Below are positions 2,358-24,370 of a stretch of 64,000 nucleotides of DNA, in pieces. This DNA comes from Cupriavidus sp. P-10 (GTDB lineage: Bacteria; Pseudomonadota; Gammaproteobacteria; Burkholderiales; Burkholderiaceae): NCBI RefSeq assembly GCF_003402535.2, contig NZ_AP025174.1, forward strand, positions 62,001-126,000. The letters run 5' to 3'. A program made the position numbers and the translations under genes. The stretch's first letter is position 1, and every line of letters starts with the position of its first letter. The notes below the pieces were generated by a model. It worked only from the letters and a program-made list of their open reading frames with translations. It was not told the origin of the DNA and made no database searches.

Positions 2358-2711
2358 GTGGGCCACAATTCGGAGTACATTGACAGCCATCTGTCGAGGA
2401 CACCCATCGGAAAATCTGCCATGCACGCCCGGGACGTGGAAGCTGCGCTTATGATCCGCTGCGCGGCGGTCGCACGCGAGCCTGCGGCGTCCGCGCTGGA
2501 CCAGCGCGAGGCCAACGTGTTCCGGCTGGCCGCTATGGTTGTGCAATCGCGCTTCCCGAGCGAAGCCTTGCACCTGATGCAGGCCAGCGAGCGCTACTTT
2601 GCTTCGCATCCCACCGAACGACTGCCTGCGCAAGTGGTGGTTGCCAAGGGCTGGGTGACCAACCTGCCTTGCCTGCGCGACCGGCTCAGCCACACTTTCC
2701 GATTTCATTGA
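2358..2711 (+). CDS. Hypothetical protein (117 aa), GTG start
   Basis: Follows the 1697 gene by 25 bases on the same strand and starts at GTG. The product is helical: HARDVEAALMIRCAAVARE, then SEALHLMQASERYFASHP, with no signal peptide. I do not recognise a family. Its end (CLRDRLSHTFRFH) is abrupt and lies some 25 bases before the GACAAC repeat cluster that may be a transposon end, so it could be a gene truncated by insertion. A minus-strand frame over the same bases is rich in His, Arg and Gln and reads like a shadow. Confidence 0.4.
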   Translation: MGHNSEYIDSHLSRTPIGKSAMHARDVEAALMIRCAAVAREPAASALDQREANVFRLAAMVVQSRFPSEALHLMQASERYFASHPTERLPAQVVVAKGWVTNLPCLRDRLSHTFRFH

Positions 2712-3231: not shown

Positions 3232-5988
3232 CTATGTGCGCATGTACTCGGAGAGCTTTTCGATAATTCGCAACGGAGTCGGGGTCGTGACCCAGGGCTC
3301 ATTCCTCGCCGTCAACATCCCGGCACGCAAATGCTGGGCAAAGGAGGCGAGTTGTAGGTTCGAGTCCTGTGGCTGCTTCTGGAGGATCACGATCTCCACC
3401 GCTCGCGAGGTCAAATGCTGCTTGTCGGGTTGCGCGGGAAACATCGCATACGCTTCACTCGCTTCGCTTGCTTTTGATGAAGCGGGAAGGAGAATTGAGC
3501 GGTAGCAGCTTGCGCCACGTTTGTGGTGTGTCGAAGGCTTGGCCAATGACCAAAACGTCGGCGCCGATGTACCCTCCACCTCAAACAATCTCTGTGTGGA
3601 TGTCCAGGAGCGGATGAGCATCCCGTGTTCGGTGCTATGCCCGTGAAATTTTTCTTGCCCGATAGATGGCGCTTGTTCTCGCACCCTCAGCACCCGTAGC
3701 ATCGGCCAACGCTGTGACAGCACGATGCCAGCAACTATTTGGCGTTGAGGTGTACGCACGCCGACGTCGCCGAGCCAAGAGGCCAGACGAGCCGTACGCG
3801 TAGAGTCAATAAACACGACTGCGCTGGGATCGAGCGACGTAATGTCATCGAACGTGTCCGCGAAAAAATTGGCCAGCAGCATGCGTTGATCGGCATTCGT
3901 TCGCGGGAGTTCGACGCGGCGAGAGGCGAGATACTTTGCACCTTGGTCAAACCGCATCCAAGGCGACATGACGTGCTCTGCCTCAGCATGGGCAAAACGC
4001 ACCCAAGATTCACCCGTGGCGCATTCCAAGCGCGTGGCAACGAACACCGACTGTTGACGGTCCCACTCGGTGTGTACCTGAAGCGAGCTCACCGCGCATG
4101 CCCACCGTGGTGCCTCCGGTTGGGAGCCGAAGCAGGCTTCCCGCGCCTGTCTCAAGCCCCAGACAAAGCCGGCGTGCCCAAACGCCAGGTCCAGGACAGA
4201 CGCCTGTAAGCGGGGAAGGAATCGATCCATTCTGCCGGGCTCGCTGGGCAATAGGTACTGTACCGTGCAACCCGTGCTGCTCAGCGCCTTTCGCGCGGCC
4301 AATTTGTTGACATTATCATCGGGCTTCCTCTGCCCGTCCCGGGTCTCATAGAACAGAGGAGCTTGGATGAGGATCATCGCGCGTTCAGGCACGCCAATTT
4401 GATCGACAAACTTTTGCCATTCACGCACTCGTGCATCGAATCGCTGCTTCCTTGATCCCGTGTCGACTGGCAATAGGCTCCTAGGCCCGTGCGTGTTCAG
4501 CGGCAAGGGGGCACTGATTACCTCGGTATTGTCTCCGAGGATTGCGCTTGCAGTCGTCTTGACCCACTCGATATCGTCGGCGGTATAGCTTAAGAAGTAA
4601 ATTCTTTGTCTTCCCGCATCAGCTTCATACGCTGTGTCTTTGACTAGCGTTTGAATGGCCTTAACGACTCGATCGTGCGCAGCATCCGGGGTGGGCGGCT
4701 GTAATCTGAACCAACGATTCGAAGGCGCCAAGGTTGCATTCTCAATTGCGCTCTCGGTGTCGGCATCGCTAAAGCCATGACGGGCAAGCAGTCTCGCCAC
4801 GACAACCTCGGCCTTCAGAACGCTCAGTGGAGGAGCCTTATGCCGGATTGGCTTCCTCGTACTGAATCCCGAGAAGGGCCGTAGACCGAATCCTTCGAGC
4901 GCGTTGGTGGCGGATGCAAACGCATCGGCTTGGTCGACGAGAGGGACGCCAGCTTGAAGGTTGGAGCGACTTGCCTCGGCAACTTCAGCCTTCACCATTA
5001 CGACCACGCTGGCGCGCTCGTCGCAAGGGTAGCGAAGCACATCTTCATCCTGATAGCCCATCGCCAGGTCTAATGCATGCTCGTACACGGGATAGCCAAG
5101 ATCGGTGACCCAGGCGTCTTTGCGTCGCATCACGCTAAAGCGATAAGCACTGTTCGGCCGAGCATGATGGGGAAACACGTATCCCCCGATGGTAGGACTG
5201 GCAGGATACCGATTATTCAAACTATCGGCCCACCGGCGCCGCTTAAACTTCAGATAGACGATCGGCTTAGTCGCTCCAGGAAGCGTCTCTAGTGAGATTT
5301 CGCAGACCAAACTGAAGTACCCGCCAGCCGCATGGTGAGGGCGTGTCATGACTTCCGCCTTGTTTCCATCTGGGCTCCCGACGACCCGCACCACCGGGCC
5401 CAATTCTGGAAACAGTTCCTTACCGGCAAGCTGCGATGCGAGCCAGCCTGCTGTGATATTGAACGGCGAGAACGTCCCAGACTTTCCAGCCGTATCCCAT
5501 GGAAACACTTGTACCTGCGACTGGGCGAATTGAATCACCTGATTGCATTCATTGAGCTTGCGCAGTGCGGCAATGCCGAGCGTATACGCGTCTCGACCTT
5601 GGCTAAAATGGGACAATGCGCCTTCCGACCACCGAGCAAATGCATCACGCACGCATTCGCTATAGTCCTGTGCTTTCTGGTAGGGCAGGAAACCCCATGG
5701 CCCGGGCTCCTTACTGAGGTCGGGGAAAGAGCGCAGTCCAATGTCATCCTTCAGAGCGGTCCAATCTTCAATCTCCAATTGAAGCTGCGCGCGTAGACTG
5801 GCGAAGGGCAGGTGAACAAATGCTTCTTCATCCTTGTCTCTCGCGCGATTCGTTGCCTCGTCACGAATTTGCTTCAGAATACGAAGGACGTCTGTGGTCC
5901 AGCGGATGGCCACAACGTCATGGACCAACGGTGGAGCCTGTTCGGCAAACTCGAGCGCGAATGCCACATCTCGGACAACGGTCGTCAT
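3232..5988 (-). CDS. pPIWI_RE protein (prokaryotic PIWI with RNase H-fold nuclease domain)
   Basis: Predicted nucleic-acid-guided or R-loop-directed effector of the pPIWI_RE three-gene defence cassettes. The product is 918 aa from the ATG at 5988, which overlaps the helicase stop as ATGA; a further-upstream in-frame start at 6027 would lie deep in the helicase gene. The family is recognised by its length, the operon partners and blocks in the last third: TEWDRQQSVFVATRLE, MSPWMRFDQGAKYLAS, VVFIDSTRTARLASWLGD (about residues 725-741) and the closing region EIVILQK, LASFAQHLR, PLRIIEKLSEY. These fit the MID plus RNase H/PIWI part of the family. No PAZ-like domain is evident. The gene is last in the operon and appears intact. 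Family assignment is from memory of the family, not from a search. Confidence 0.75.
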   Translation of the reverse strand: MTTVVRDVAFALEFAEQAPPLVHDVVAIRWTTDVLRILKQIRDEATNRARDKDEEAFVHLPFASLRAQLQLEIEDWTALKDDIGLRSFPDLSKEPGPWGFLPYQKAQDYSECVRDAFARWSEGALSHFSQGRDAYTLGIAALRKLNECNQVIQFAQSQVQVFPWDTAGKSGTFSPFNITAGWLASQLAGKELFPELGPVVRVVGSPDGNKAEVMTRPHHAAGGYFSLVCEISLETLPGATKPIVYLKFKRRRWADSLNNRYPASPTIGGYVFPHHARPNSAYRFSVMRRKDAWVTDLGYPVYEHALDLAMGYQDEDVLRYPCDERASVVVMVKAEVAEASRSNLQAGVPLVDQADAFASATNALEGFGLRPFSGFSTRKPIRHKAPPLSVLKAEVVVARLLARHGFSDADTESAIENATLAPSNRWFRLQPPTPDAAHDRVVKAIQTLVKDTAYEADAGRQRIYFLSYTADDIEWVKTTASAILGDNTEVISAPLPLNTHGPRSLLPVDTGSRKQRFDARVREWQKFVDQIGVPERAMILIQAPLFYETRDGQRKPDDNVNKLAARKALSSTGCTVQYLLPSEPGRMDRFLPRLQASVLDLAFGHAGFVWGLRQAREACFGSQPEAPRWACAVSSLQVHTEWDRQQSVFVATRLECATGESWVRFAHAEAEHVMSPWMRFDQGAKYLASRRVELPRTNADQRMLLANFFADTFDDITSLDPSAVVFIDSTRTARLASWLGDVGVRTPQRQIVAGIVLSQRWPMLRVLRVREQAPSIGQEKFHGHSTEHGMLIRSWTSTQRLFEVEGTSAPTFWSLAKPSTHHKRGASCYRSILLPASSKASEASEAYAMFPAQPDKQHLTSRAVEIVILQKQPQDSNLQLASFAQHLRAGMLTARNEPWVTTPTPLRIIEKLSEYMRT

Positions 5989-8900
5989 GCTCCTGCCTCT
6001 TGTTGGATGGGAGAGTCTGCAACCCACAGGGGGTTATCCGTCCAAGGCTCATCCTGGTGAGCGTCTTCTCGCGCGAAGGCAACTTTCAGGCCCTTGGTCT
6101 TCGATAACGGATCAAGGAAAGCGCCGTAGAGAGCTCGGTATAGCGCAGCTTCCTTGGGGTCCTCAGACGCCGCACCACGCTCGAGCAGCCGGCGAAGTTG
6201 AACGAGCATGCTGCTGGTCTCCGTATCCGCTTCGCCCTTGGCCGAGCGCTCCGCCCATGCGCGATCAATGAAGAAGCACTGAACAGGGCAGCCATTGCGC
6301 ATCGCACGGCCAATCGTCTGTAACAGTGAGACAGCGATATTTGCTGTGAAAGGCTCAAACAGGTCGCCCAGTGCACGTGCGTATAGGGGGCGCCGCAGCA
6401 GCCTGCCAACCTTTCGATAGGCTTGCCGGCGTGCAGCCAGCAAGCGCTTACCGATCTCTTCGACGGACACGGAGTCATCGTCGCAAAGATCGAAGTCGAG
6501 CGTGGCGCGTGCCGCCATGCTTACAGGCAGGCTCATGTCATTGGGCGCAGGGTGTGGACGCGTCAAAAAGTACAGCGACCCGAGAGCCGCATCGCGCAGA
6601 CGCGGACCGGATGTGAAGACAATATTTGTGCCGCGACCCAGCGCGCCGGCGGGAAATATGAGCAACCTCCATGCATCATCATCGCCCAAACTTTCGACGC
6701 GAGACGACGTCACATACCCTTCGGTTGGTCCAACGTCAGGTAAGTCATCCACAACCGCAACAACGCGGCCGCGCCATGCGGGTAGCCGCTGATCAATAAA
6801 CTGCTTCAATCGGCGAGCTTGATCATAGCTGTTGACAACGAATGCGGCGCGCCGTGCTATGCCATGGCGCACGTCAAAGTGGTCGCAATCGCGGGCGAGT
6901 TGAGAGTCCGTTAGTCCCCCGTCTAACAATGCGAAGGCCATTTTCTCAAGGTTCGCCATGCGCACGCTGTCCGATCTTTCGCCGCTGAAGCGCAGGAAGG
7001 TGGGCGAATCTGAGACATGTCCATCCGCGATGGGACGAAACTCGTACATTGAGGGGGCGACGTCCTCACGCTCAGGTGAAACGCGCTGCAGGACGTAGTG
7101 GGGGGGCACAGCGATATGGTGAGCGGGGCTGGGCGGTAGGTAACTCGTCGCGCTGGTAAGCAGTACCGCGGGACCATCGAACATGCCATTCGGTCGCCGA
7201 ATCCACTCATGTAGCCGGTACATTAGCAGTCGAGGTGTACCAGCGAACACGACATACTGTAGTTGTACGTCTGTGGCATGCGCCAAAGGGTCGCGTTGAG
7301 AGGGCGTCGAGAAGAAGCGAACCCCACTCAAACTGCCCAAGATATTGTCGGGTGTTGCCAGCAGCAAGGATCGCGATGCGAGTTCGTCGATGCGGACAGG
7401 ATCAAGCAAGCCCTGTGCTGTCATGTCGCTGAGCTTTGGGGAAAGGCGACGATAGCTCAGGATCGTGAACGTGACTGGCAGCAGCAGCCCAACCAATTGC
7501 TGCGCCTCTGCCTCACTCGACACTCGCCGAACATCACGTAAGCGTCGAGCAATTTGTTTGACGAGGTTGGATAGTTCCTGCAGGCTTGACTCGGCGAGCC
7601 AGTTGGTCATCAACTGGCAGAGATCGCTGTGCAGGCTTGATGCCTCTTCCGCGGACATGTGAAAGGCGCTAACCAAGCGCATTGTCACATCAGCGGGAAT
7701 CGCGACGCTTACGGATCTCGTACCTCGCAGTTGGAATGCTTGAATCGCGGCACTCTCCCACAACTCACACAGCGCATCCTTTGACTGCGCCTGCGGATCC
7801 GCTCCAAAGTCGTCGCTCAACGAACTGACTCGCCTAGGAGAGAGCCAGTCGCCAATAATTCGTAAGGGGGACATCAGCAACCCGTCGAACGCCTTGCGCA
7901 GATCTTCCGTTAGGCGCAGGATGGCATGTGTCAACGCGACGTTCAGTTTCTCGAACTCTGCGATCTCGATTGCCAGTTGGGCATACTCGACTCCATGTAA
8001 GACCGCGTTTTGTCCGGATGCGATGGGCTGTAGTGTACTTCGTTGAACTTGTCGATGAAATGAACGGTCGTGGCCTGAAAGACTAAGTTCCGCAATACCA
8101 CCTCGATCGAGATCCTGTTGCGCTCGGTCTGCCTCATCGAAGATCACGAGGTCAAAGGATCGTGCAATCAGCTCGAAGTAGCGCTCATCGAGAAGTGTCG
8201 TATGAGCTGGGACGCGGGTATCCGCGGACAAGATGTGTCCTAACCAAATATTTGCGTTTGGCAAGTCTGCGGCGGCGCGTGTGTACCCGCACAGGGACCA
8301 AACAGGGCATAGCCTGCGCTTCAGTGTGCCATCGCTGGTCGCTTTGCCAGTGTTGTCGTTGACGGGATTCTGCAGAACCCTGGTGCAAAAGGAGTCGGCG
8401 ATGCCAAAGGCAGAATTTGGTGCTTCGGTGAGGGACGGCAGAGCGCAGACGCCTTCAAACAGATGAGCACTGTCGCAGGACGTTCCGAAACCACGGAGGG
8501 GGTCGCCTGTTGCCAGTGATTCAGCAAGCTTGTGAGCATGTCGAAGTCGCGTTTCGCGTGACTGCCCGACTAGCAGGCCAGCACGGACATCGTATCGACG
8601 CAAGTCATCGAGATACTGGCGGCATACCTCGATGGATGGAAAGAAGACTGCAACCTTGAGTCCCCGGCTGCCGAGATAGCGCAGCAAACACATGAGAAGC
8701 GTTGTTTTTCCTGCCCCTGGTAACCCTATCAGGTGCTTCAGACCTTCTAGGTTCAACGTCGATTCGACGTTGAAGTCGCCGTTGTTGTCGATGCTATGCA
8801 GCGCAACGGACTGCAGACGTTGCTGCCAGTTGCCACGCCTCGGTGATTGGAGTCGTTCGTCAATGGCGTCCATTTCACTTGCTTCCGCCAGCAAGTCAGT

Positions 8901-9443
8901 CCACGGAATCAAATGGCGCCGCTGCGGTGGTCGGCTGGTTTCATGAGCGCGAGGTAACGGCAAGTTCGCGGGCAATGCATGAACCGGATAGCGGCGCGAT
9001 TCACCGCCAAATTTGACGTGAATGGCGATCGGCTTGTCGGATTCCGCCAACGTCTGATCATGTGCATCGGGCGTGTGAGGCGTCTTTAGTGCAGCCAGTG
9101 CCTCGCTGAGCTCCGGCGCGACGATGTCGAATCTCGGCTTGATGGCCAGAGAGCGCTCATCGATGCGAAATAGACGGCGGTGCGTCAATGCTAAGGCGGA
9201 ATCGTTGTACCGCACCGCAGCGGCCTTCAGTGCGGCAACCGTCGAGAGTCCATTGCATGCTCGACGGAGATTGTCGAGTTCAATCTCCCGATCACGCAAC
9301 AAGGGTGCACGAGCCACACTACGGAAGCCCATGAGCAGCGCCGGTGCGTGCTGGAGCGTATGCAGATCAAGCTCGTGGACGAAGTAGGCGCACAATAGGT
9401 CCAGCCGATGTAGTCCGAGGGATTGTAGACGTTTGACGATCAC
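5985..9443 (-). CDS. pPIWI_RE cassette helicase (DinG/XPD-like SF2, candidate Fe-S)
   Basis: A 1152-aa helicase, middle gene of the pPIWI_RE cassette, expected to unwind DNA or R-loops for the PIWI and REase partners. Walker A is IGLPGAGKTTLL (residues 239-250) and Walker B/DEAD is LVIFDEADRAQ (432-442). Between them lie Cys323, Cys333, Cys353, Cys379 and Cys385, the position of the Fe-S cluster in XPD/DinG enzymes. Motif VI is QTIGRAMRNG (about 1042-1051). The first 200 residues have no helicase motifs and match the place of the cassette's Z domain. The GTG start at 9443 overlaps the REase gene stop (GTGA), indicating coupled translation. The frame is intact, but its normal upstream partner is interrupted by an IS, which may reduce its expression. 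Confidence 0.8.
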   Translation of the reverse strand: MIVKRLQSLGLHRLDLLCAYFVHELDLHTLQHAPALLMGFRSVARAPLLRDREIELDNLRRACNGLSTVAALKAAAVRYNDSALALTHRRLFRIDERSLAIKPRFDIVAPELSEALAALKTPHTPDAHDQTLAESDKPIAIHVKFGGESRRYPVHALPANLPLPRAHETSRPPQRRHLIPWTDLLAEASEMDAIDERLQSPRRGNWQQRLQSVALHSIDNNGDFNVESTLNLEGLKHLIGLPGAGKTTLLMCLLRYLGSRGLKVAVFFPSIEVCRQYLDDLRRYDVRAGLLVGQSRETRLRHAHKLAESLATGDPLRGFGTSCDSAHLFEGVCALPSLTEAPNSAFGIADSFCTRVLQNPVNDNTGKATSDGTLKRRLCPVWSLCGYTRAAADLPNANIWLGHILSADTRVPAHTTLLDERYFELIARSFDLVIFDEADRAQQDLDRGGIAELSLSGHDRSFHRQVQRSTLQPIASGQNAVLHGVEYAQLAIEIAEFEKLNVALTHAILRLTEDLRKAFDGLLMSPLRIIGDWLSPRRVSSLSDDFGADPQAQSKDALCELWESAAIQAFQLRGTRSVSVAIPADVTMRLVSAFHMSAEEASSLHSDLCQLMTNWLAESSLQELSNLVKQIARRLRDVRRVSSEAEAQQLVGLLLPVTFTILSYRRLSPKLSDMTAQGLLDPVRIDELASRSLLLATPDNILGSLSGVRFFSTPSQRDPLAHATDVQLQYVVFAGTPRLLMYRLHEWIRRPNGMFDGPAVLLTSATSYLPPSPAHHIAVPPHYVLQRVSPEREDVAPSMYEFRPIADGHVSDSPTFLRFSGERSDSVRMANLEKMAFALLDGGLTDSQLARDCDHFDVRHGIARRAAFVVNSYDQARRLKQFIDQRLPAWRGRVVAVVDDLPDVGPTEGYVTSSRVESLGDDDAWRLLIFPAGALGRGTNIVFTSGPRLRDAALGSLYFLTRPHPAPNDMSLPVSMAARATLDFDLCDDDSVSVEEIGKRLLAARRQAYRKVGRLLRRPLYARALGDLFEPFTANIAVSLLQTIGRAMRNGCPVQCFFIDRAWAERSAKGEADTETSSMLVQLRRLLERGAASEDPKEAALYRALYGAFLDPLSKTKGLKVAFAREDAHQDEPWTDNPLWVADSPIQQEAGA

Positions 9444-9577
9444 GAACGAGTCCTAAGCTTTCGGCGAAGAGCACCAACTGCTATGAATTCGATGTCCGTT
9501 CTATTGCACTCCCGGCGCAAGGTATCCAAATAGCCGGGGAAGCGCGACAGGGCCTGATCGTTGATGGCTATGTATTT
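9440..9577 (-). pseudogene. 3' fragment of the IS-split pPIWI_RE REase gene
   Basis: C-terminal piece of the gene whose larger part is at 10891-12245. Read on the minus strand from the left target-duplication copy it gives KYIAINDQALSRFPGYLDT and ends RKLRTRS with TGA at 9442-9440, overlapping the GTG of the helicase. Joining it to the other fragment, counting the 8-bp duplication once, gives 1485 bases, or 495 codons including the stop, in one frame. Confidence 0.85.
9570..9577. repeat. Target-site duplication, left copy (ATGTATTT)
   Basis: Identical 8-bp direct repeat at 9570-9577 and 10891-10898, immediately outside the inverted repeats of the ISL3 element. An 8-bp duplication is usual for this IS family. 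Confidence 0.9.
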
Positions 9578-10890
9578 GCCTCTTTTGAATTTCAAGTGGG
9601 TGGTATCGTGGCGGGTTTCAGGTAAAGAGCAACACGATCGATGCATAGCAAACTGTTTGAAGCAGCCCTTGGCGTAAGCGCTCCGTGGTTCGTCCGGGAA
9701 GTCGACTTCAACGCGCAAACCAAGACGTTGACGATCCAGATTGACTTTGTCTCCGGCAGCCGCTTTTCCCACCCGGAGGTCGCCGGTGGGCACCCGGTTC
9801 ACGACACGGTGACCAAACGCTATCGGCACCTGAACTTCTTCGAGCACGACTGCTATCTGGAAGTCCGCACGCCACGCGTGAAGCTTCCCGACGGCCGCGT
9901 GGCGTTGGTCGAGCCGGACTGGGCTGGCAAGCTCTCTGGCTTCACGTTGCTGTTTGAAGCCATGGTGGTGGCGCTTGCGCAGCAGATGCCGTTTTCTGCT
10001 GTAGCCAGAACGGTGGGTGAGTCGTGGCATCGCGTGTACGCGATCTGCGAGCGCTATGTCGACCTCGCGGTGGCCGAACTCGATCTGGCCGGCATGACCG
10101 CTGCCGCCGTTGACGAAACGTCCTACAGGCGCGGTCACAACTACCTGACGCTTGTCGCTGATGCCGACGCGCGTAACGTCGTGTTTGTGACCGAAGGCAA
10201 GGATGCTGCCACGGTTGGCAAGTTCGCTGAACATCTGCGCGAGCACAACGCTGCGCCCGAGCAGATCGGGGTGGTCAGTATCGATATGTCGCCGGCGTTC
10301 ATCAAGGGCCTCAGCGAGCATTTGCCCAACGCGCGCATCACCTTCGACAAGTTCCATGTCGTGGCTCACGCTTCGGCAGCCGTGGACAAGACCCGGCGTA
10401 TCGAACAGAAGACCGATCCAAGCCTCAAAGGCCTGCGCTGGACGCTGCTCAAGGATCGGGACGGCTTGCCAGCCGCACAGCGTGCCGATCTCGACGCGTT
10501 GATCGCCAACGTCACGACCAAACGCACCGCCCGTGCCTGGCTGTATCGCGAGCAGTTGCGCGACATCCTTGGGCGCAAGCAGATCAACGTTGTTTCCGCA
10601 ATGCTCGAGCAGTGGTGCACGAACGTCATGCGATCCAAGGTCGAGCCAATGAAGGAGGTCGCGCGCATGATCCGCAAGCATTTTGATGGCATCGTTGCAT
10701 GGACCCAGACTCGCCAGACCAATGGCTTCCTGGAGGCGCTCAACGGCCTGTTCCAAGCCGCCAAGCGCAAGGCTCGCGGCTATGTGAGCTTCAAAACCAT
10801 GCGCACCGTGATCTTCCTGATCGCCGGAAAGCTCGACTTCTCCGCGATCAACCCGCATGCCGCATAACCCACTCATTTTTCAAAAGAGCC
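9578..10890 (+). mobile_element. ISL3-family insertion sequence, 1313 bp, complete
   Basis: A full element with one transposase gene (9641-10867). The left inverted repeat starts GCCTCTTTTGAATTTCAAGT at 9578. The right end, read inward on the minus strand from 10890, starts GGCTCTTTTGAAAAATGAGT. They match at 18 of the first 24 positions. It is flanked by an exact 8-bp duplication. It sits inside the REase gene of the pPIWI_RE cassette, in the opposite orientation to that gene, and therefore inserted after the cassette arrived. The exact duplication implies a fairly recent event. Confidence 0.93.
9641..10867 (+). CDS. ISL3-family transposase
   Basis: A 408-aa DDE transposase that should mobilise the 1313-bp element around it. 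The N-terminus includes the KRYRHLNFFEHDCYLEVRTP zinc-binding type region. Catalytic candidates are Asp in AAAVDETSYRRGHNY, Asp in VVSIDMSPAFIKG with ITFDKFHVV shortly after, and Glu in TNGFLEALNGLFQAAKRKARG near the C-terminus. Both the DKFHV block and the LNGLFQAAKRKARGY block are hallmarks of the family. Length is normal and the frame is intact, so the element may still move. The ATG at 9641 is the first in the frame. Confidence 0.93.
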   Translation: MHSKLFEAALGVSAPWFVREVDFNAQTKTLTIQIDFVSGSRFSHPEVAGGHPVHDTVTKRYRHLNFFEHDCYLEVRTPRVKLPDGRVALVEPDWAGKLSGFTLLFEAMVVALAQQMPFSAVARTVGESWHRVYAICERYVDLAVAELDLAGMTAAAVDETSYRRGHNYLTLVADADARNVVFVTEGKDAATVGKFAEHLREHNAAPEQIGVVSIDMSPAFIKGLSEHLPNARITFDKFHVVAHASAAVDKTRRIEQKTDPSLKGLRWTLLKDRDGLPAAQRADLDALIANVTTKRTARAWLYREQLRDILGRKQINVVSAMLEQWCTNVMRSKVEPMKEVARMIRKHFDGIVAWTQTRQTNGFLEALNGLFQAAKRKARGYVSFKTMRTVIFLIAGKLDFSAINPHAA

Positions 10891-12245
10891 ATGTATTTCT
10901 TTGGGAATAGTTCCAAGCCCCCGACGTTTCGGTTCAGGGTGTCCGCAAGAAGGAACGGGCTGGCATGGCTCTTGACATCGATCCCGATGGTCTCGTTATC
11001 CAGGCTGACGTCGCACTTATCCCGACCGGGATACAGTGTAGCCACTAGTCCCGGAGGATTTGCGGTAGCGGTGTCATACAGAGCAATCTCGTCTTGGCCT
11101 GGGCCGCACCAGTAAACGAGAATATGCGACTTCGCGATTAGGACATCTTGTACTGGCACCTGCCGAGCCGATCGACAGGGTACCGGTACGTCGAACGCGC
11201 TGCATTGACGTACCGCGCAACACGCATGACCTTTGATCACTGAGTTGGCCATCGGCGCGCCGCAAGTCGCGCAGCGTAGCAGGGCGCCATTTACGAGGTG
11301 GTGAGGTTGAACCGACTCGTAACAGGTCGCCATAAAGGGTGCTGCCAGTTGCATGCTGGATGCACTCAAAAATCGGCGTATCTCTGTGGGGGAGGAGATG
11401 GGATGTCGCGTGATGAACTCTCGAAGCTTGGAGTAAACGTCGCTTCCACGCATCCCGAACTGGTCGCAAGCCGAATTCAGTTGTGCAAACGCCTGCTGCT
11501 CATTCAGGTCGATCTCGGAACCCGACTGCCGTGCCAAGTCAATGCACTCGATCGTCGGAAGGCAAGTCTGCGCATCGAGCAAGCGAATACCGTAAAAGCG
11601 ACAGTCCGGGCGGTCAAAAATCGGTATGCCCCACTCGCGGGCGCGCAAAGTGTGGCGACATTGTGCAACTAGGGTGTGGGCGCCATCAGATCGAACCGGC
11701 ATGCCGAACATAACGTGCAAGCTGGCCATCCGCAACATCGCTCCGCGCAGGGCGGGCGAGAGCGCTGGATCATGAACGAGCAAGCGACCGGATCGCGCTC
11801 GCTGGAAATGGTCGACCAGGCCGACCGCAAGCAAGCATACGGCTTCGTGGGCAAGTCCCAAGGCGCGCGCGTGATCCACGGTGGGAATGCCTGGTTCAAC
11901 GATCTCGGCTGAACCAGGCCCGTTGTGTTGCATCAGCAGCGCAATCAGCTCAGTGGGATCCATCGACTGCATCCGCTTTGCTGCGGACTTCCTGCTGTGG
12001 CCTGACTGCACCAGCACGCAGGCGACAACCAACTGCACCAGATGTGCCCACTGATACCGTTTGCGGATGGCTGGAGCTATTAGCCCCACAGAGCGATAGT
12101 CCACGACAACGGAGCGTGATGGTGGACGCAGCGTCTGACCTTGCCAGGGGTGAGTGCCGATCAGCTCTGAAGCGGCGAGCGTCAACTCATCCAGGGATCC
12201 CTCCCATGTTTTGTGACTTCCCAGCCGCAATAGCAATGCCGACAT
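10891..12245 (-). pseudogene. pPIWI_RE REase-domain protein (Y plus REase), interrupted by ISL3
   Basis: First gene of the defence cassette, expected to be its DNA-cutting component. The start ATG at 12245 has GGAGG seven bases upstream. About 451 native codons are left before the insertion; the displayed frame then reads a few codons into the IS. Features: an N-terminal helical region matching the cassette's Y domain; a zinc ribbon with C325-x2-C328 and C342/C343...C348; and a PD-(D/E)xK-like core DNETIGIDVKSHASPFLLA (D416, D423, K425) followed by NVGGLELFPKKY. The gene continues at 9577-9440 and is restored in frame to 494 aa if the IS is excised precisely. As it stands the product lacks its last 45 or so residues, which follow the nuclease core, so partial function cannot be excluded. 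Confidence 0.8.
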
Positions 12246-12872
12246 CAGAACGCCTCCGCAAGGCTCGTCAGAACCGACGTTCTAATATCCTAGTCGAGCC
12301 TTGCTTTCGGCACAAATGCCAAAGGGATTCCGGAAATCTCGGGGGCGGGCTGCGCAACGGCACTCCGGCACAGAATGTGCTTTATTCAGCGCCTTCGGGT
12401 GCGTATAGCCTCAAAAAATCCCCGAAAACCGCTAATGTAGGCACGAATTAATGCCTATCTACGATTATCGAATAATAAAAAAATGATTTATTTCCGTGCC
12501 GGACGGGAAACCAAGCATCCTCCTCCCGTTAAGTAACTGATAATCACCTCGGCTGGCTTCTGGCAAATCCGATAGTGCTTGCGTATTTCCGGGGAGGCAG
12601 CTATGACAAATATGATCACGATTCGCTCGTGGTCAAGACGCAACAAGGCGCGAGATCAGTAACGGCTGATCTCGCGCCGAATTTGAAATCATCCGACCCG
12701 ATGAAGGGGAGCATTATCGCCTGAAAAAATCCTGGCCAGTGCCTTTCGCGCGCTTGCCCAAAATTTCTCCAAGTCTGGATTGACTCTGCTTCATTTTTGC
12801 CAGGAAGTCAAGGGGATCTTTGTTTGCCGCCGCGTTAAGCCTGGTCTCATCCCTCAAATCCGAGGAGCTGCG
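12246..12872. other. Divergent control region between cassette and tns operon
   Basis: About 630 bases with no supported gene, between the divergent REase and tnsA genes, so promoters for both must lie here. It is AT-rich around 12420-12500. It contains a perfect 13-bp-arm hairpin (separate entry) and scattered TGACAAA/GCAACAAGGC sequences that loosely resemble the GACAAC sites at 2735-3012. If the cassette is cargo, one transposon end could also be here; I cannot tell. Confidence 0.5.
12647..12678. other. Perfect 13-bp inverted repeat (hairpin)
   Basis: GGCGCGAGATCAG, loop TAACGG, then CTGATCTCGCGCC. There is no T-run on either side, so it is not a standard intrinsic terminator. It could insulate the two divergent operons, serve as an operator, or be a transposon-end structure. 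Confidence 0.6.
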
Positions 12873-13502
12873 ATGAAACACGAGGCACATGCGGTAGTTT
12901 TGCCGCGAACGATCGCTGCGCGGCATTATGTTGACTTGCCTGGACGAGGCTTGCGCAATCTGTACGTCTTTGAGTCGCCCAAGAACGACAAGCGGTTGGC
13001 GGTATTTGGGCAAGTTTGCTTCTGGCACCTCATGTTGGCGGAGGGGAATCCCGAGATTCGCCGGTATCTCTTGTGCTCAGATTTTGCCGGCGATGTTTCC
13101 GCTTCCAACGCCGTGGACGTCCATTTTATGGATGAATCCATTGAGCGCTGGTACTTCAGTCGGCGTGGCTTGCCAAAGGAAGATCAGTGCCCCTATCCCA
13201 TCATTGTTAAGACCGAAGCACAAATTCGCGCTGCCGGGCTACTCCCGCACAATTGGAGGTTCCTCTGCGCAGCACGTACCCGTGCTCATGGCAAGTACGC
13301 AGGCAAAGAGCTGTTAGTGCTCAGAGCCCTCTTTGAGGACCGCCATACCGTTGCGCTGAGCGAAGTCATTGCTCAACCCGGCATAGATGTTGCCATTATG
13401 CTGGCTGCCGTTGCACATCAACTGGCGGTAGGGGTTTTGCGAACCGAGCTCAAGAAGCAATTGTTTTCACGTCGTTCCTTGATCTCGAGGATCGAAAAAT
13501 GA
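12873..13502 (+). CDS. tnsA: TnsA-like endonuclease of Tn7-like element
   Basis: Predicted heteromeric-transposase subunit that cuts the 5' ends of the transposon. The 209-aa product starts at 12873 behind GAGGAG; the open frame extends further upstream without a good RBS. Placement immediately before tnsB with an ATGA overlap, and size, fit TnsA. The centre has FGQVCFWHLMLAEGNPEIRR then AVDVHF...PIIVKTEAQ, in the order of the TnsA nuclease region (E, D, xxK), though the second and third elements are divergent. The C-terminal 50 residues (LSEVIAQPGIDVAIMLAAVA) look like the winged-helix domain. I rate the name as likely rather than certain. Confidence 0.7.
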   Translation: MKHEAHAVVLPRTIAARHYVDLPGRGLRNLYVFESPKNDKRLAVFGQVCFWHLMLAEGNPEIRRYLLCSDFAGDVSASNAVDVHFMDESIERWYFSRRGLPKEDQCPYPIIVKTEAQIRAAGLLPHNWRFLCAARTRAHGKYAGKELLVLRALFEDRHTVALSEVIAQPGIDVAIMLAAVAHQLAVGVLRTELKKQLFSRRSLISRIEK

Positions 13503-15460
13503 AAGCAGGTGCGAGACGTTCTTTGATTCCTGCCGCATTGCAAGATATTGAAGCTTGGCCAGATATTGACGTATCTCAACTCGATGAAAATGCACGTCGT
13601 GGAGTAGCCCGCAAAAAAGAAGCAGTCGCCCTCTACATGGCAGGATACAGTTTCCCGGACATTGCAGCACAAACGCTGATTTCGGATGATAATCTACGTC
13701 GCATCATCAAGCGTTGCATCGCCGTCGCTCCGGATAAGCGGATCTTCGGTTTTCGTGCGCTCCATCCCGGGCTTCACGTGGTGGCATACACGCGCAACAA
13801 ACCGGTCGTGCGTAATTTCGTATTGGGCACAAGTTGCTCAAACGGATTTGCTGGTGCACTCGGACAGCTGTTTCTCCGGTTTCCCTGGCTACGTAAGCGA
13901 GTCATAAAACAGTTTCTGGGTCAGAATGATGATGGCGAGTATGTCGAGGCCAGGAAGTCAATTGCCAACATTCACAGGGAGTTCCTTGAGGAATTAAAAG
14001 GAAAGCTCAAGCCGGGCGAGTGGCCATTGAATACGCGCAATCTCGGATACTCTGCGCTGCAGAAGTATTTGCACGCGCTGTTGAAAACCAGTCCTACCGC
14101 ATACATCCGGGAGCGCAGTGGGGAGGAGGCCGCGTGGCACTTGAGGATCGGGAAAGGGCATCCACGCTTGATCCAAGCGTGGATGCCATTTTCGATCTTG
14201 GAATTAGATTATGTCCGGCAGGATGCGCCCGGGTACATCGAATTCGAGGACCGCTATGGCCACCTACATAGGTTGCTTGTCGCTCGTTGGTATGTCGGGG
14301 TGTTGGCCGACGAGTGCAGTGGGGGCGTATGCGGCTATCACGTCGCTTATGAGGCCGAGCCGTCGTCCGATACGGCCCTCCAGACTGTCCTTAGTTCGTT
14401 GATGCCGGCAGCACAGGACGACGACGCACCGTTGATGCGCGATGTCGTACCTGACCAGGCTTCACTCCTGCCGAATCTGATTCCCCTATGCGCCCGCCAG
14501 GGGTGTTGCCTACTTAAAGTCGACAATGGGTGGGCGAACGTTGCCAATGACTTTGTGAACAATGTCATCGATGTACTTGGTTGCGCTGTCGAGTTCGGCG
14601 TTCCACGTGCCTGGTGGCTTCGCCCCTTTATTGAACGACTCAATGGAAAGCTTGCTGAGCGGGGCCTCCATCGACTTCGGTGTACCTATGGCAGCGGGCC
14701 GCATGACCCGCGGCGCCGCGAGCCAGAGAAGGAGGCAGCACGGTACACGCTGCGTGACAGGGATCTTACGGCAATTCTCGATGCCGTCATCGCAGAACAT
14801 CACACGGTATTTACCCCGGAAAAACTCTTCCGAAGCACGATTCGGGACACATTGGAAGACTATGCGATGCGGCCGGAACTCGATTGGGTACCACAGCCTT
14901 TGCCAAACGCGAGCGAGCCAGAATTACGACTACTGATGCATAAGGTGGTGGCCAGTGTCCGTGGCTCAGTGAAGAAGGGCGTGCGGCCCTATGTTCAATT
15001 TGATCGATGCCGCTATACAAATGAGCGACTTTCCTCTGACTTCACGTTGATCGGACAGAAAGTGGAGCTTCAAGTCCAGCGGATGGACATTCGCAAAGCA
15101 TGGGCCGTCGTCCTCGGTACTGGGCGGGACCTCGGGCAATTAAATCCGGACGCCCGCTGGGCAGACTGGAAGTATTCGATTCTGGCTCGGAGAGTCATGA
15201 ATCGGGACGCCTTGGCAAGTCCAGCAGATCGAGACCCTCAGGCTGTGCATGAAACTTTAAAGGCGAGGCGTCAGGCACTCCTCGACCAGAAGCCCAAAAA
15301 GCGAAGCAAACGCGAGGCCTTGAGAATCGCCAAACTACAGCGGGAGATCGCGTACGACCCAGCGGAGAAGCCAACCACGTCGTCTCCTGAGCATCGCAGC
15401 AGAGACCTCCGGGGAGTGTTCACGGCATTCCGCAACACAAGGAGAGATGATGATGTCTGA
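13499..15460 (+). CDS. tnsB: TnsB-like DDE transposase (Mu/Tn7 superfamily)
   Basis: A 653-aa transposase that would bind the ends and join the 3' strands. The catalytic triad is visible: D237 in SILELDYVR, D342 in CLLKVDNGWANV, and E379 in WLRPFIERLNGKL, with 36 residues between the second Asp and the Glu as usual for rve-type integrases. The N-terminal part contains an HTH (ALYMAGYSFPDIAAQTLIS) for end recognition; the last 100 residues are basic, in the place of the TnsC-interacting tail. It overlaps tnsA by four bases and tnsC by several. The frame is intact and of normal length for the family. Confidence 0.9.
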   Translation: MKAGARRSLIPAALQDIEAWPDIDVSQLDENARRGVARKKEAVALYMAGYSFPDIAAQTLISDDNLRRIIKRCIAVAPDKRIFGFRALHPGLHVVAYTRNKPVVRNFVLGTSCSNGFAGALGQLFLRFPWLRKRVIKQFLGQNDDGEYVEARKSIANIHREFLEELKGKLKPGEWPLNTRNLGYSALQKYLHALLKTSPTAYIRERSGEEAAWHLRIGKGHPRLIQAWMPFSILELDYVRQDAPGYIEFEDRYGHLHRLLVARWYVGVLADECSGGVCGYHVAYEAEPSSDTALQTVLSSLMPAAQDDDAPLMRDVVPDQASLLPNLIPLCARQGCCLLKVDNGWANVANDFVNNVIDVLGCAVEFGVPRAWWLRPFIERLNGKLAERGLHRLRCTYGSGPHDPRRREPEKEAARYTLRDRDLTAILDAVIAEHHTVFTPEKLFRSTIRDTLEDYAMRPELDWVPQPLPNASEPELRLLMHKVVASVRGSVKKGVRPYVQFDRCRYTNERLSSDFTLIGQKVELQVQRMDIRKAWAVVLGTGRDLGQLNPDARWADWKYSILARRVMNRDALASPADRDPQAVHETLKARRQALLDQKPKKRSKREALRIAKLQREIAYDPAEKPTTSSPEHRSRDLRGVFTAFRNTRRDDDV

Positions 15461-16442
15461 AAAGAATGTCGATAGTCTCCGTAGCCGTCTGCAAACCGGT
15501 ACACATCCACTTCTCGCGCACGACACCAATAGTCCCTTGTGGACGCCGCCGATAAGACACGCGTATGCCGCATGCAAGCTATGCGTATTGCAGCGTCGAA
15601 GCTTCTACATCTCCGAGGATAGGGGAGAAGGGAAAACGTCATTTCTGCGGGCGTTGCGTGAACAGTTGCCAAACGACTTTGAAGATAGCTTTGCAATACT
15701 ATTCTATGCAGCGGCAAACAGACACGCCAATTCGATTCGTGCATATTTCATCGAATTCCTACGATCGATAGATCATCCTACTCTCACCGGAGAGACTGCT
15801 AGGCTCAAAGCGCGAGTCGTCGATAAGTTGGAGGTGTTGGCTAGCATGACGCTGTGGAAAATGGTGGTCTTGCTTCTTGATGAAGCACAGGCATTTCTAC
15901 CCGAGGACTTTGGATTTCTAAAAGACATACAAAATGAACTGGAAAAAAAGGGGATATCATTGACCGTGGTGACCTGTGGCGAGGAACCATTTATGAAGAA
16001 TATGCTGACAACCATGATAGAGATAGGACCTGCCGGTGCATGTGCCGATAGGTTCGGTCTTCATAGAGTGAGACTGCGTGGCTACGACAAAGATTCCCTG
16101 CGAGAGGTGCTTCGCGCTGTCGATTCCAAGATCTGGCCGCCGGGCTCCGGATGCACGTGGACTCGATATTTTTTTCCCAAAGCGTTTTCAAACGGATTTC
16201 GGTTCGAGAATCACGTGGACGACCTCTGGGCAGCATTCACGGAGTTTGGTCAAATTAGAAAGAAGGAAATAGAAGACGAAAATGGCCATAGAGAGGAGGA
16301 ATGCCTGCTAAGCCGTCGAATTTTCGAAGCGCTGCCATATTTGGCTGTTCGTGTTGCGGACGACGACTTTGACCACGGGTACTTGAAGAAGAGATTTTGG
16401 ACTGCGGCGGCAGCGCATGCTGTCGGTAAGTTAGACGACTAG
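15453..16442 (+). CDS. tnsC: TnsC-like AAA+ ATPase, transposition regulator
   Basis: AAA+ ATPase that links target selection (TniQ) to the transposase. Three ATGs stand in a row (15447, 15450, 15453) behind AAGGAG; the third has the best spacing. Walker A is SEDRGEGKTSFL, which lacks the usual first Gly, and Walker B is MVVLLLDEAQAF. Sensor-like VTCGEEPF follows. The later block DRFGLHRVRLRGYDKDSLRE, WPPG, FFP is also found in the decayed copy at 18323, which supports the family link. Overlaps tnsB and sits 15 bases from tniQ. GC and codon use look lower here than in the copper genes, consistent with transfer. Confidence 0.85.
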   Translation: MSEKNVDSLRSRLQTGTHPLLAHDTNSPLWTPPIRHAYAACKLCVLQRRSFYISEDRGEGKTSFLRALREQLPNDFEDSFAILFYAAANRHANSIRAYFIEFLRSIDHPTLTGETARLKARVVDKLEVLASMTLWKMVVLLLDEAQAFLPEDFGFLKDIQNELEKKGISLTVVTCGEEPFMKNMLTTMIEIGPAGACADRFGLHRVRLRGYDKDSLREVLRAVDSKIWPPGSGCTWTRYFFPKAFSNGFRFENHVDDLWAAFTEFGQIRKKEIEDENGHREEECLLSRRIFEALPYLAVRVADDDFDHGYLKKRFWTAAAAHAVGKLDD

Positions 16443-16457
16443 AAACTGGTGGTCCGC

Positions 16458-17762
16458 ATGGTTACGGTAGCGACCGACAAAGGCAAGCGACTGCTGGGTT
16501 GGACAGGCGTCGAGTGGGGCCCGCTTCCCTATGAGTCGACCCTGTCTGTGTTGATGCGATGGGTTCAATTGAATGACCTAGGCGAGGGCGAGCTAAGAAG
16601 GCTGCATGTCAAACGTTACTGGGGTATTAGGCATGAATCTTACTTCGAAGTGTCTGATGCCTTAGCCGGAGCCTTGGAGACTGCTGCGGTCATACTGCAG
16701 CGCCCGGCTGAGGAAGCGAACACCATGAGTGGGCGCGCGGCCTGCCTCTTAAATGCAATGTTCTCGTCGACGCTGAGGATATGTCCGCTGTGTTTGGAGT
16801 CGGGATACCACAGCTTTTGGTTCCAATGCGTTGCGCTTCCATTGTGCCCTGTCCATGCGGTACCGCTAACTTCCCTTTGTCAGAGCTGTGGGCACCCCTT
16901 ACCTCCCGTGGTTGACGCCTGCAGCTCGTGGAAACCTTATCAGTGCAACTATTGCCTATCGTGGATTTCAGGCGCGGAGTTTGTCCCCGCAATGCATCAC
17001 GAATTTCGAGATCACGGACGAGAACTTCACCGACGGTTTGACAACCTAATGGCTTGGACAAACCGTCTGCATATGGCTCATGCTGAGGTTGGGTCTGCCG
17101 ATGCTGCGGTAAGTCGGTACTGGCAATGGCGTGAAACACTTGCCTACGCGTTATGCGTGCGTCTTGCCCCAGTCCTACCCCCAAGCCTGGAGAATTCGAA
17201 GCACGCTGTAACGATACTCAGTTGGTGTTTGCGTCGAGATGGAACGCAATTGTTTTACGGTAGACGTCGGACGGAGGAGCGACATTACGTCGATCTCGTG
17301 TATCGCGCTACGCTACGCATGCTGGCGAAATGGCTGTTATCAAGATTGCTACTGTTCCCGGAGCGACAATGTTCGATAGTGTGGACCGACGGTGTTCAAT
17401 TGAGACTACGGTCGCTAGATCGTCACGTTGCAGCCCTTCACATTCTCCGGTATTTTTTTGACGGCGGGGCGGCTTCGTGCCGGTACGCATTGACAGACGG
17501 TCTTCGACATGTCTACGCGGGAAGGGAGGTGCAATCTTTGTACGGCCGCTGCCTAACCCGCTTGTCCGTGCGCGCCGTGACGCTCTGCCTCTATGCCACC
17601 ATCTTCAAAATCCTTGGTCGCGGAAAGCCATTGTATTGGCAAAGTGTTCTGGTTGAACTCATGGAAAGTTCGACTATGGCTATTTTTGGGAATGAAGGGT
17701 GTTGCCGGGGCTTCATCGCATTCGAGAGTGTGGCGGGTATGCCGTTAAGGCCGTTTCAGTGA
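16458..17762 (+). CDS. tniQ: TniQ/TnsD-family target selector
   Basis: TniQ-domain protein that would choose the insertion site. Length is 434 aa from the ATG at 16458 (a GTG at 16449 is possible). The N-terminus GWTGVEWGPLPYESTLSVLM is the typical TniQ opening. A zinc-finger array follows: RICPLCLESGYH, LPLCPVHAVPL, SLCQSCGHPL (CxxC, CxxH, CxxC), then YQCNYCLSWIS. The rest is a long helical tail with no second zinc motif. Only one TniQ protein is present, and no TnsE or Cas genes are visible, so targeting is presumably by TniQ/TnsD-type DNA recognition. Confidence 0.85.
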   Translation: MVTVATDKGKRLLGWTGVEWGPLPYESTLSVLMRWVQLNDLGEGELRRLHVKRYWGIRHESYFEVSDALAGALETAAVILQRPAEEANTMSGRAACLLNAMFSSTLRICPLCLESGYHSFWFQCVALPLCPVHAVPLTSLCQSCGHPLPPVVDACSSWKPYQCNYCLSWISGAEFVPAMHHEFRDHGRELHRRFDNLMAWTNRLHMAHAEVGSADAAVSRYWQWRETLAYALCVRLAPVLPPSLENSKHAVTILSWCLRRDGTQLFYGRRRTEERHYVDLVYRATLRMLAKWLLSRLLLFPERQCSIVWTDGVQLRLRSLDRHVAALHILRYFFDGGAASCRYALTDGLRHVYAGREVQSLYGRCLTRLSVRAVTLCLYATIFKILGRGKPLYWQSVLVELMESSTMAIFGNEGCCRGFIAFESVAGMPLRPFQ

Positions 17763-20547: not shown

Positions 20548-21277
20548 CGCGAGTAATCGCAGGATCTCTTCCCGCTGGGCACGATTCTCCTGACGAGCAT
20601 TTGACTTGATCTTGTTCTAAAGTTGGCCGCTACGGCGCGGGTCGGTACCAGGTAGCCAACTCGGTCATGCGCAAGGCGGAGTAGTGATGGTCGATCAGGA
20701 GCACCATCAGCGCAACTTCAAAGTTGGCTGTGATGGCGCGACCAAGGACGGCAGACCAAGTGGGCAGGGCCGACATTGTGAAGAGTCCCGCCGCCATACA
20801 GATGCGCCACGTGGGGAGATACTGAGCGCGGCGGCTTGATCGTGGGTGCCAGCCCCTCCCTCTGCGATGCGTCGTTGGGCCGTGTGCGGTTCATGGCAGC
20901 CTCTCCTCATCGATCTCTCGTTGGTATGCGGACCATTGTAGAAGGCACATCGTTTCAATCAAGAAGTAGTCAGGTTTGACTTTGCTCACATGGCGAAACA
21001 TACAAGGACACGTAGTAGAACATGCGCGCGCGTGGCGGATGGCAACGGAGCAATATGAAAGTGGCAGCGTGGTAAATCGCGATTTCTCTTAATTTTCCGA
21101 TCCGTCGCAATGTTTTCGCTCGCATTGATTACACGATAATGACGCGCGCGTAAGGTTCCCCTTGGCAAGCGTCATGCGTGCATAAGCCGACTGACGACGA
21201 CATTGAGTTGGCACTTTAAATGCCGTGCTGGTGGAAGTGTCACCAAACTGCGCATGGCCAACTGAGGGAGGCTACGG
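20548..21277. other. 730-bp stretch without a supported gene
   Basis: Short minus-strand pieces such as MSALPTWSAVLGRAITANFE (from about 20773) look protein-like but stop within 45 codons. The part from 20960 to 21277 is AT-richer and should hold the promoter of the FAD oxidoreductase gene; I see no clear operator. Confidence 0.4.
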
Positions 21278-22918
21278 ATGGGCATGACATCACTGTGGGC
21301 GGCGACTTCTACATTGCCGCACCGGGCGGCGCTGACCGGCCGGATTCAGGTTGAGGTCATCGTGGTCGGCGCGGGCATTGTCGGCCTGACTACCGCGCTG
21401 ATTTTGGCCCAGCAAGGGCGTTCGGTGGCTGTCATTGATGCGCATCGCATTGGGCGCGGCGCTACGGGCGGTTCGACAGGCAATCTCTATGCAACGGTCG
21501 CTGACGGTCTTGCGGCCCTTGTCAAGAAATGGGATGCCCAGACAGCGCGAGCAGTGGTGGCTTCACGCACTGAAGCCATCGCCTGGATCGAGCAGCAAAC
21601 CACTGTCAGGCATTCAGACTGCGCGTTTCGGCGCTGCCCGATGTTCCAATACGCGATTAGTGAGCAAGCAGAAGGGCGACTTCAGGACGAGTTGGACGCG
21701 GCGAGATTGGCGGGCATGGCCGTTGACTGGACTGACCACGTGCCAAAGCCGCTACCTGTACCTTACGGGCGGGTTCTGGTGTTGCCCGGGCAAGCCCAAT
21801 TCCATCCACTGCGCTACATGCATGCCCTGGCCGCGCACGCCGAGCAATGTGGAGTGCAGGTCTACGAGCACAGTCCAGCCATGGAGCTGGATGCGGGGTC
21901 AGGGGTCGTGCGGACCCCCGCTGGCAGGCTGGTCGGTCGCCACATCGTGCTGGCGACGCATACTCCCATTGGGTTTCATTTTATCCAGGCGGGCATGCAA
22001 GTTCGCCGCGAGTATGGCCTCGCCTTTCGGCTTGGGGGAGATGTTCTAGCGCCAGGCATATTCTGGGCCTTGGGCATGCCGCGTTTATCCGTGCGTTCAT
22101 TCGAAACCGACGGCCAGCGGTATTTGCTTTGCATTGGTGAACATCACGAAACGGGTCGTCATGATGCCGCCGCGGCTCTGGCGCGATTGATCGCCGAAGC
22201 GCAGACCGCCTTGCAGTTAGGCGAGCCGGCCTGGCGGTGGTCGGCGCAACACTATCACTCGCCCGACGAATTGCCCTATATCGGTCAGGACAGTGCTGGC
22301 TTCTATGTCGCCACGGGCTTCTCTACCGACGGCCTTGTGTACGGCACGCTGGCCGGTCGACTGATTGCTGACCAAATCAATGGGCGTGAGAATCGTTGGA
22401 GCGAATTGTATCGCGTGCGTCGGTTTCATCCTGGGCGGGCAGGGTCGGACATGTTCAAGGCGAACACCGGCGTTGCCAAGGAGTTCTTCCACGACTATGT
22501 GACGTACCGCAGCGCCAAGCCGGCGCAGGCGCTGGCGCCGGGGCAAGGGGCGATCGTGCGGCTGGGGCACGAACGGGTGGCGGCCTATCGCGACGCAGCC
22601 GGCGCGCTTCACGTGGTATCGGCAGTTTGCACCCACATGAAGTGCATGGTGCACTGGAATGCCGTCGAACGCAGTTGGGATTGTCCATGTCATGGCAGCC
22701 GGTACTCCCCCGATGGCCAAGTGCTAGAAGGCCCGGCGCTGTCCCCGCTGCGCAATCAACTGGTCCTCCTTCAAAACCACGAAGTCGGGGAGTGCCATAC
22801 AACCGAGACGGCGTCAAATGACACGCGCGGGCGTCCCGCTATGTCAGCACGCCAGTCCGATGACGAAGGTGCGCGGCGTAACGCTTCCGACGCGGCCAGC
22901 GACAGAGACTCGCAATGA
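21278..22918 (+). CDS. FAD-dependent oxidoreductase fused to a Rieske [2Fe-2S] domain
   Basis: 546-aa redox protein. Residues 25-60 form the FAD-binding Rossmann motif (VEVIVVGAGIVGLTTALILA, then AVIDAHRIGRGATGGSTGN), and the DAO-family middle ends with GFYVATGFSTDGLVYGTLAG. The C-terminal 100 residues are a Rieske domain: CTHMKC and CPCHGSRYSPDG give the Cys-x-His and Cys-x2-His ligand pairs. DAO-Rieske fusions are known but their substrate is unclear. No signal peptide is evident, so it is probably cytosolic. GAGGGAGG lies upstream of the ATG. Its stop overlaps the start of the cytochrome c gene, so the two probably form an electron-transfer pair. Confidence 0.88.
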   Translation: MGMTSLWAATSTLPHRAALTGRIQVEVIVVGAGIVGLTTALILAQQGRSVAVIDAHRIGRGATGGSTGNLYATVADGLAALVKKWDAQTARAVVASRTEAIAWIEQQTTVRHSDCAFRRCPMFQYAISEQAEGRLQDELDAARLAGMAVDWTDHVPKPLPVPYGRVLVLPGQAQFHPLRYMHALAAHAEQCGVQVYEHSPAMELDAGSGVVRTPAGRLVGRHIVLATHTPIGFHFIQAGMQVRREYGLAFRLGGDVLAPGIFWALGMPRLSVRSFETDGQRYLLCIGEHHETGRHDAAAALARLIAEAQTALQLGEPAWRWSAQHYHSPDELPYIGQDSAGFYVATGFSTDGLVYGTLAGRLIADQINGRENRWSELYRVRRFHPGRAGSDMFKANTGVAKEFFHDYVTYRSAKPAQALAPGQGAIVRLGHERVAAYRDAAGALHVVSAVCTHMKCMVHWNAVERSWDCPCHGSRYSPDGQVLEGPALSPLRNQLVLLQNHEVGECHTTETASNDTRGRPAMSARQSDDEGARRNASDAASDRDSQ

Positions 22919-23538: not shown

Positions 23539-23793
23539 CCATGATGCCGCGCAACATTGATCATCATCCCGAACGCGAGCATGCTCCCAAGGGCAAGTTG
23601 CACACAGCGGTACCAAGTACAGCCCACATCTTGGCGCGGTTTGCCGACCTCCCCCTCATTCCGTCAAGCTCATGCCGCGTCGATGACGAGGTTGCCATTA
23701 GGCATTGGGCGCGTCCGTTCGACCAAGCGCCATTGCCCGGGAGATCGCGACGGCGATGATGGCAACGCAAGGTGACGTCAGGAAGGGAGCGCC

Positions 23794-23922
23794 ATGAATA
23801 GATCGACCATTTGGAGAATCATCTTGACCGTACGCGCTACCATCGGCGTGATCGCCCTCTTGGGTGCGGTCGGCATGCTGTTGATGCACCAGCGCATGAT
23901 GGGCGGACTGAGTTGTTGCTAG
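23794..23922 (+). CDS. Small membrane peptide (42 aa)
   Basis: Too short for most gene finders. ATG at 23794 with GGAAGGGA upstream. The product is a short basic N-terminus, a single membrane helix (ATIGVIALLGAVGMLLMHQ) and a Met/Cys-rich end MHQRMMGGLSCC. Such peptides accompany efflux systems, and the Met-Met and Cys-Cys end could touch copper. The start and the frame are plausible but there is no homologue I can name. Confidence 0.45.
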   Translation: MNRSTIWRIILTVRATIGVIALLGAVGMLLMHQRMMGGLSCC

Positions 23923-24033
23923 TCTGGGCGGCAGCGTAGTGCGCCGAGCAAGGGCATGACCGCCCCGTCGATGCCGAGGCAGGCACGAACCGGTGCTGCA
24001 TCGAATTCCGCTGCGAACGAACCGTTGTGGCCG

Positions 24034-24273: not shown

Positions 24274-24370
24274 TGCAACGCGAAACCAGGCGGCTTGATA
24301 TTAGCAAGCCTGCCAGGAGCTAGGGCGCGCACGGCCTGCTTGGCAGCAAACCGTGCGCGCATGGCGTGAA

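Follow-up and report, generated by a model that had tools for sequence, protein, structure and literature searches.

A pPIWI_RE cassette of three genes, the system called "Ppr" by PADLOC, was identified at positions 3232-12245 of a 64,000-nucleotide stretch of Cupriavidus sp. P-10 DNA (hereafter the window), which is part of contig C5 (356 kb) in a genome of five contigs and 9.08 Mb. pPIWI_RE is a predicted defence system. The cassette adjoins a Tn7-like gene set, and its first gene, encoding the REase, is interrupted by an ISL3 insertion sequence (IS) closely resembling ISAe1. A second cassette, on contig C3 of the same genome, carries a cut helicase gene. In the reading that we consider quite probable, the window REase is a null allele produced by a recent ISAe1 insertion, every gene is present full-length in at least one of the two cassettes, and the system either functions in trans or is decaying cargo.

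The window cassette and its ISL3 element

The genes run in the order REase-DinG-PIWI, with a GTGA overlap between REase and helicase and an ATGA overlap between helicase and PIWI. Pfam and PADLOC matches bore out the family and the overlapping three-gene layout given in an initial annotation of this DNA. The PIWI protein gene (3232..5988, reverse strand) matched PF13111, PF18157 and PF13032 above cut-off, with X, MID and RNase H domains present, and PADLOC PprPIWI at 8.2e-48; its open reading frame (3232-6027, reverse strand) is open from 6027, and the ATG at 5988 overlaps the helicase stop. The DinG-like helicase gene (5985..9443, reverse strand) is intact and encodes 1152 amino acids that matched PADLOC PprDinG at 1.3e-191 and pPIWI_RE_Z at 1e-5, with no Pfam match at E<=0.001. 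Full-length proteins were aligned for PIWI (n=13) and helicase (n=17). The Walker A and DEAD motifs and four cysteines of the Fe-S type (C333, C353, C379 and C385) were invariant in all 17 helicases. With respect to the family-specific conserved R/E of PIWI, both R781 and R783 were present in 13/13 proteins, the named R being one of these two, and E878 was present in 11 (D in the other 2). The window PIWI protein looks non-cutting, and because of this the REase is probably the sole DNase of the cassette. Judging from the family, an intact cassette would work by PIWI recognition of a guided target or RNA-DNA hybrid, unwinding of or movement along that target by the DinG-like helicase, and cleavage by the REase.

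The inserted element (9578..10890, forward strand) is 1313 bp long and 97.9% identical to ISAe1 of C. necator H16 pHG1. It has terminal inverted repeats and an ISL3 transposase gene (9641-10867, forward strand; DDE_Tnp_ISL3, 8.2e-65; NF033550), and its single match in the genome makes it the only copy found there. A literature search on ISAe1 found no papers. As had been annotated, the element sits in the REase gene between exact 8-bp target duplications, ATGTATTT, with a left copy at 9570..9577 and a right copy at 10891..10898; the same 8 bp occur once in C3. The coordinates of the IS and its duplication were derived by hand from alignment outputs. The insertion divides the gene into a 5' part (10891..12245, reverse strand), which encodes residues 1-451, and a detached 3' part (9440..9577, reverse strand), which includes one duplication copy and matches natural alleles past the insertion point. 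The interrupted open reading frame (10848-12245, reverse strand) continues into the IS down to 10848. Subtracting 1313 and 8 from the span of the gene (12245-9440+1 = 2806) gives 1485 bp, the length calculated in the initial annotation.

Natural IS-free REase alleles of exactly this length (1485 bp, 494 amino acids, without internal stop) were found in three places: on contig C3 of this genome, on a C. oxalaticus T2 plasmid, and on a chromosome-size contig of another Cupriavidus species (genome G416). All three cassette genes are open in T2 and G416. With such alleles available in relatives, as the initial annotation had suggested, in silico rebuilding of the gene is therefore unnecessary. Over residues 1-451 the window REase is 94% identical to the C3 allele, 96% to that of T2 and 98.9% to that of G416. 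The continuation predicted past the junction, KKYIAINDQALSRFPGYLDTLRREC, was found as an exact string in G416; C3 and T2 have YLDI instead. The IS-free alleles matched PF18154 over positions 1-112 of 117 and scored 26.5 against PF18156 (cut-off 26.7), and the helical Y part, zinc ribbon and nuclease were all found; the T2 allele matched PADLOC PprRE at 6.5e-48. The interrupted window frame matched PF18154 above cut-off, yet over 57 of 117 profile positions. Among the Pfam families proposed at the outset, PF13032, PF13111 and PF18154 thus exceeded their cut-offs in the window, and PF18156 fell just below (25.4 versus 26.7). Cysteines 325, 328, 343 and 348 of the REase are invariant.

Effect and age of the insertion

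The REase alignment (A1) consisted of the window protein and 34 of the 43 proteins found. In the modelled nuclease sheet the last strand spans residues 449-454, and the window protein diverges at 452. The initial placement of the break after the nuclease core was thereby rejected, the break lying inside the predicted nuclease fold with conserved positions lost. The annotated loss of the C-terminal end stands, with the exact figure being 43 residues (452-494) rather than 45 or so, and 14 foreign residues in their place. The lost positions include A453, N455, D456, Q457, R461, F462, P463, Y465, L469 and E472, and each of these occurs in 32-34 of the 34 homologues. Because the break falls inside the last nuclease strand of the model and 43 residues are lost, several of them near-invariant, the window REase allele is probably nuclease-null.

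The truncated protein would keep its N-terminal MerR-like, Y and zinc-ribbon parts. Partial activity, or a role as regulator or dominant negative, was therefore weighed, and we think it quite doubtful. Residues 1-451 are kept, including D409, D412, D423 and K425 upstream of the break, and at the broken strand the IS supplies YMALL instead of YIAIN. The MerR-like fold of the N-terminal part, together with a conserved intergenic palindrome (described below), would also suit a regulator. Against these points, the ten highly conserved residues listed above are gone, as are three helices and one strand of the model.

The comparison of the window with G416 bears on the age of the insertion. Within the cassette the two are identical over 6565 columns to the left of a recombined tract and over 1416 columns to its right, yet G416 lacks the IS; for this reason a recent insertion, as originally proposed, fits the alignment. 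ISAe1 would thus have jumped recently into the window REase gene, leaving a protein that ends inside the last nuclease strand. Within the tract, 33 differences were observed in 968 columns around the IS. Private changes numbered 10 in the window and 17 in G416, and these do not tell which side was replaced. The tract was considered as a mark of IS arrival or removal and this was dropped, since a tract of this size covers about 0.11 of the stretch and its overlap with the IS may be due to chance.

A second cassette and lesions across Cupriavidus

The second cassette is contained in a region of contig C3 (606085-620193) that matches the window at 92-96%. Its REase and PIWI genes are open and its helicase gene is split by one extra T; the frameshift follows residue 459 and so lies beyond Walker A (240) and the DEAD motif (436). 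The T run at this site contains three T in C3 and two T in T2, G416 and the window. It is conceivable that the frameshift is an assembly error, in which case the genome would have a working cassette alongside a spare inactivated by the IS. A single-base difference in a short T run and an otherwise open cassette would be expected of such an error. The run is just three T, however, and the other three sequences agree on two; long-read errors are rarer in T runs so short. We regard the assembly error as unlikely.

With the window helicase open, at least one full-length allele of each cassette gene is present in the genome, distributed over two contigs. Loss of the pPIWI_RE system in this cell, which the initial annotation took as inactivation, is for this reason not established: one interrupted gene does not equal loss of the system by the cell.

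Compared with the window, the C3 copy also has a 3.2-kb insert at window position 2352 (G000:C3:602848-606085; L003 from 12848, L004 to 85). It encodes another ISL3-type transposase (407 amino acids) and a 349-amino-acid protein resembling an HNH nuclease; a target duplication was not evident for this insert.

Neither locus is complete, and either the two would function together in trans or both would be decaying cargo. The first option can be extended to a split system kept by complementary damage, in which the surviving genes work in trans and exchange between elements 92-96% identical can regenerate complete cassettes. Exchange itself is indicated by the alignments. In the interval 12700-15399, G416 matches C3 at 140 of 156 differences and the window matches C3 at 14; window-type and C3-type elements have thus recombined. 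If the split system were true, the recombined tracts would be traces of regeneration, and loss of either replicon would switch defence off. As a whole, this proposal strikes us as improbable.

The alternative, that both cassettes are dying cargo, holds that the tns genes remain mobile and redundant or costly defence genes are lost stepwise. Genome sets from the genus (60, own included), the order (399) and the phylum (398) were used for comparison. Among the 60 Cupriavidus genomes, the element (TnsB >=85%) was found in four and a helicase match in three, one of which (G437) is merely 36% identical. Six Cupriavidus copies were compared. Two are intact (T2 and G416) and four are broken by three distinct lesions: the IS in the window, the extra T in C3, and one large deletion common to G452 and G408. 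In each of the latter, the REase 5' part runs at codon ~201 directly into the 3' end of the PIWI gene, and the junction is identical in the two. A further damaged allele is known as protein only, a C. necator REase without the nuclease part (P0033); that C. necator also has the gene in the TnsA position (P0046), on a contig of equal length. A second protein, P0002, was dropped as a broken allele; it lacks the N-terminus alone, which may reflect a start-codon call.

The three lesions in 4/6 copies, the truncated C. necator protein and four tns genes open in 6/6 elements speak for dying cargo. Against it stand the two intact copies and ratios of nonsynonymous to synonymous substitution (dN/dS) in the cassette of 0.08-0.19, for comparisons with enough changes, which are as low as or below those of TnsB (0.18-0.26). 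The sample is also small, two of the four broken copies represent one event, and the cassette, exceeding the tns set in length, is expected to take more hits. Dying cargo is a serious candidate, with a chance that we put a little short of even. Cost, redundancy and simple decay would each account for the recurrent lesions equally well.

A first scan of genome contigs with the PIWI protein gave 38 stretches and no relative. A PIWI frame of roughly 2000-3100 codons, encoding additional domains, is present in many other pPIWI_RE islands (L061, L063, L066, L047-L049 and L052), and L052 and L054 have an AAA ATPase after the PIWI. The islands with the long PIWI frame are a distinct large subtype.

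Tn7-like neighbours and comparison with known systems

Four genes run divergently from the cassette on the forward strand, and both cassettes adjoin such a set. The first (12873..13502, 209 amino acids) has no family match and would be TnsA by its position; homologues of its product were found only in Cupriavidus (3 proteins). It is followed by genes for a TnsB-like transposase (13499..15460, 653 amino acids; weakly similar to a structurally characterised TnsAB fusion, E 0.007), a TnsC-like AAA ATPase (15447..16442, 331 amino acids; PF13401 8.5e-11, weak PADLOC TnsC 0.004) and a TniQ-like protein (16449..17762, 437 amino acids; PF06527 at 14.9 bits, below cut-off, PADLOC TniQ 0.0027). Synteny and weak similarity thus point to a putative Tn7-like membership. 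No shared end repeats were found as transposon ends, and no empty site was found in the genus set. A guided transposon, in which PIWI would select the target, was rejected: among outside pPIWI_RE loci, 0/19 had tns genes of the window type in the stretches compared, of which L059 and L062 are <9 kb. Neither a REase nor a PIWI match was obtained for the tns relatives L020 and L021, whose stretches are short.

The interval that separates the cassette from the tns genes contains a 32-bp palindrome (12647..12678) with 14-bp arms, GGCGCGAGATCAGT-4-GCTGATCTCGCGCC. Palindromes this long are not rare, with four sites in the window; the notable part is conservation, the arm columns being identical in 6/6 elements while the flanks vary. 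In this genome it occurs only at the two elements (<=3 mismatches allowed). A possible role of the palindrome is as operator of the divergent operons. In the available text of PMC9938897, a MerR-type regulator controls a CRISPR-associated transposon, and by analogy a comparable regulatory role for the MerR-like REase N-terminus is worth considering. A promoter scan gave a result at chance level.

On the far side of the cassette, a small gene (2421..2711, forward strand), located by tblastn of a 96-amino-acid T2 protein and by DNA matches, also adjoins the cassette in T2 and G416, and G452 and G408 have it at their relic loci. To the left (window -2311 to roughly 1000) there are several degraded transposase copies, annotated as ISNCY in relatives, which differ among C5, C3 and G416. 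The C3 and T2 elements adjoin the same heavy-metal P-type ATPase gene (G000:C3:620883-624000; L010:29770-32887), and the window and G416 have a common, different right flank; the flanks are possible preferred target sites. Window positions 21258-25815, beside genes resembling metal efflux, are 100% identical to G416 over 4558 bp and represent a recent transfer.

The cassette has the same three proteins, order and overlaps as the three-gene pPIWI_RE system in the available text of Burroughs 2013 (PMC3702460; PADLOC Ppr), with the same Fe-S cysteine helicase, zinc ribbon plus nuclease with N-terminal helix-turn-helix, and PIWI R/E pattern. That text describes many PIWI members as non-cutting, as the window PIWI appears to be, and puts forward RNA-dependent restriction by prediction without experiment. 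Unlike the system as described there, two copies are present in one genome here and different genes are broken in them. In the accessible part of Benler 2021 (PMC8649781), PIWI REase (pfam18154) is listed in 19 Tn7-like transposons. The REase as Tn7-like cargo is thus already published in that part, and what is unusual here is the reciprocal lesions in one genome; compared with those transposons, the ends of the present element are undelimited and its TnsA-position protein lacks a family match. PsPIWI-RE of Pseudomonas stutzeri, according to the portion of PMC10991935 consulted, cuts DNA under RNA guidance and RNA under DNA guidance and has two catalytic Asp; the window protein belongs to the same PIWI-RE family and shares the conserved R, and it lacks the first catalytic Asp. 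PMC7641849, in its available text, treats Piwi-related Argonautes, not pPIWI_RE, and PMC10293859 does not mention PIWI, Argonaute or Cupriavidus.

DdmDE, a further system, consists of the Argonaute-like DdmE and the helicase-nuclease DdmD. The helicase here is of a different type and the nuclease is in a separate gene, the likeness being a common nuclease fold only.

No phage-defence experiment on pPIWI_RE (or pPIWI-RE) was found in the literature searched, with subscription papers and most preprints outside the search. Near-identical natural Cupriavidus alleles that are intact (T2 and G416), REase-broken (window) or helicase-broken (C3) stand beside the same tns genes. They provide natural controls for tests of defence by the system, of the dispensability of its parts, of action in trans and of a possible cost of carriage.
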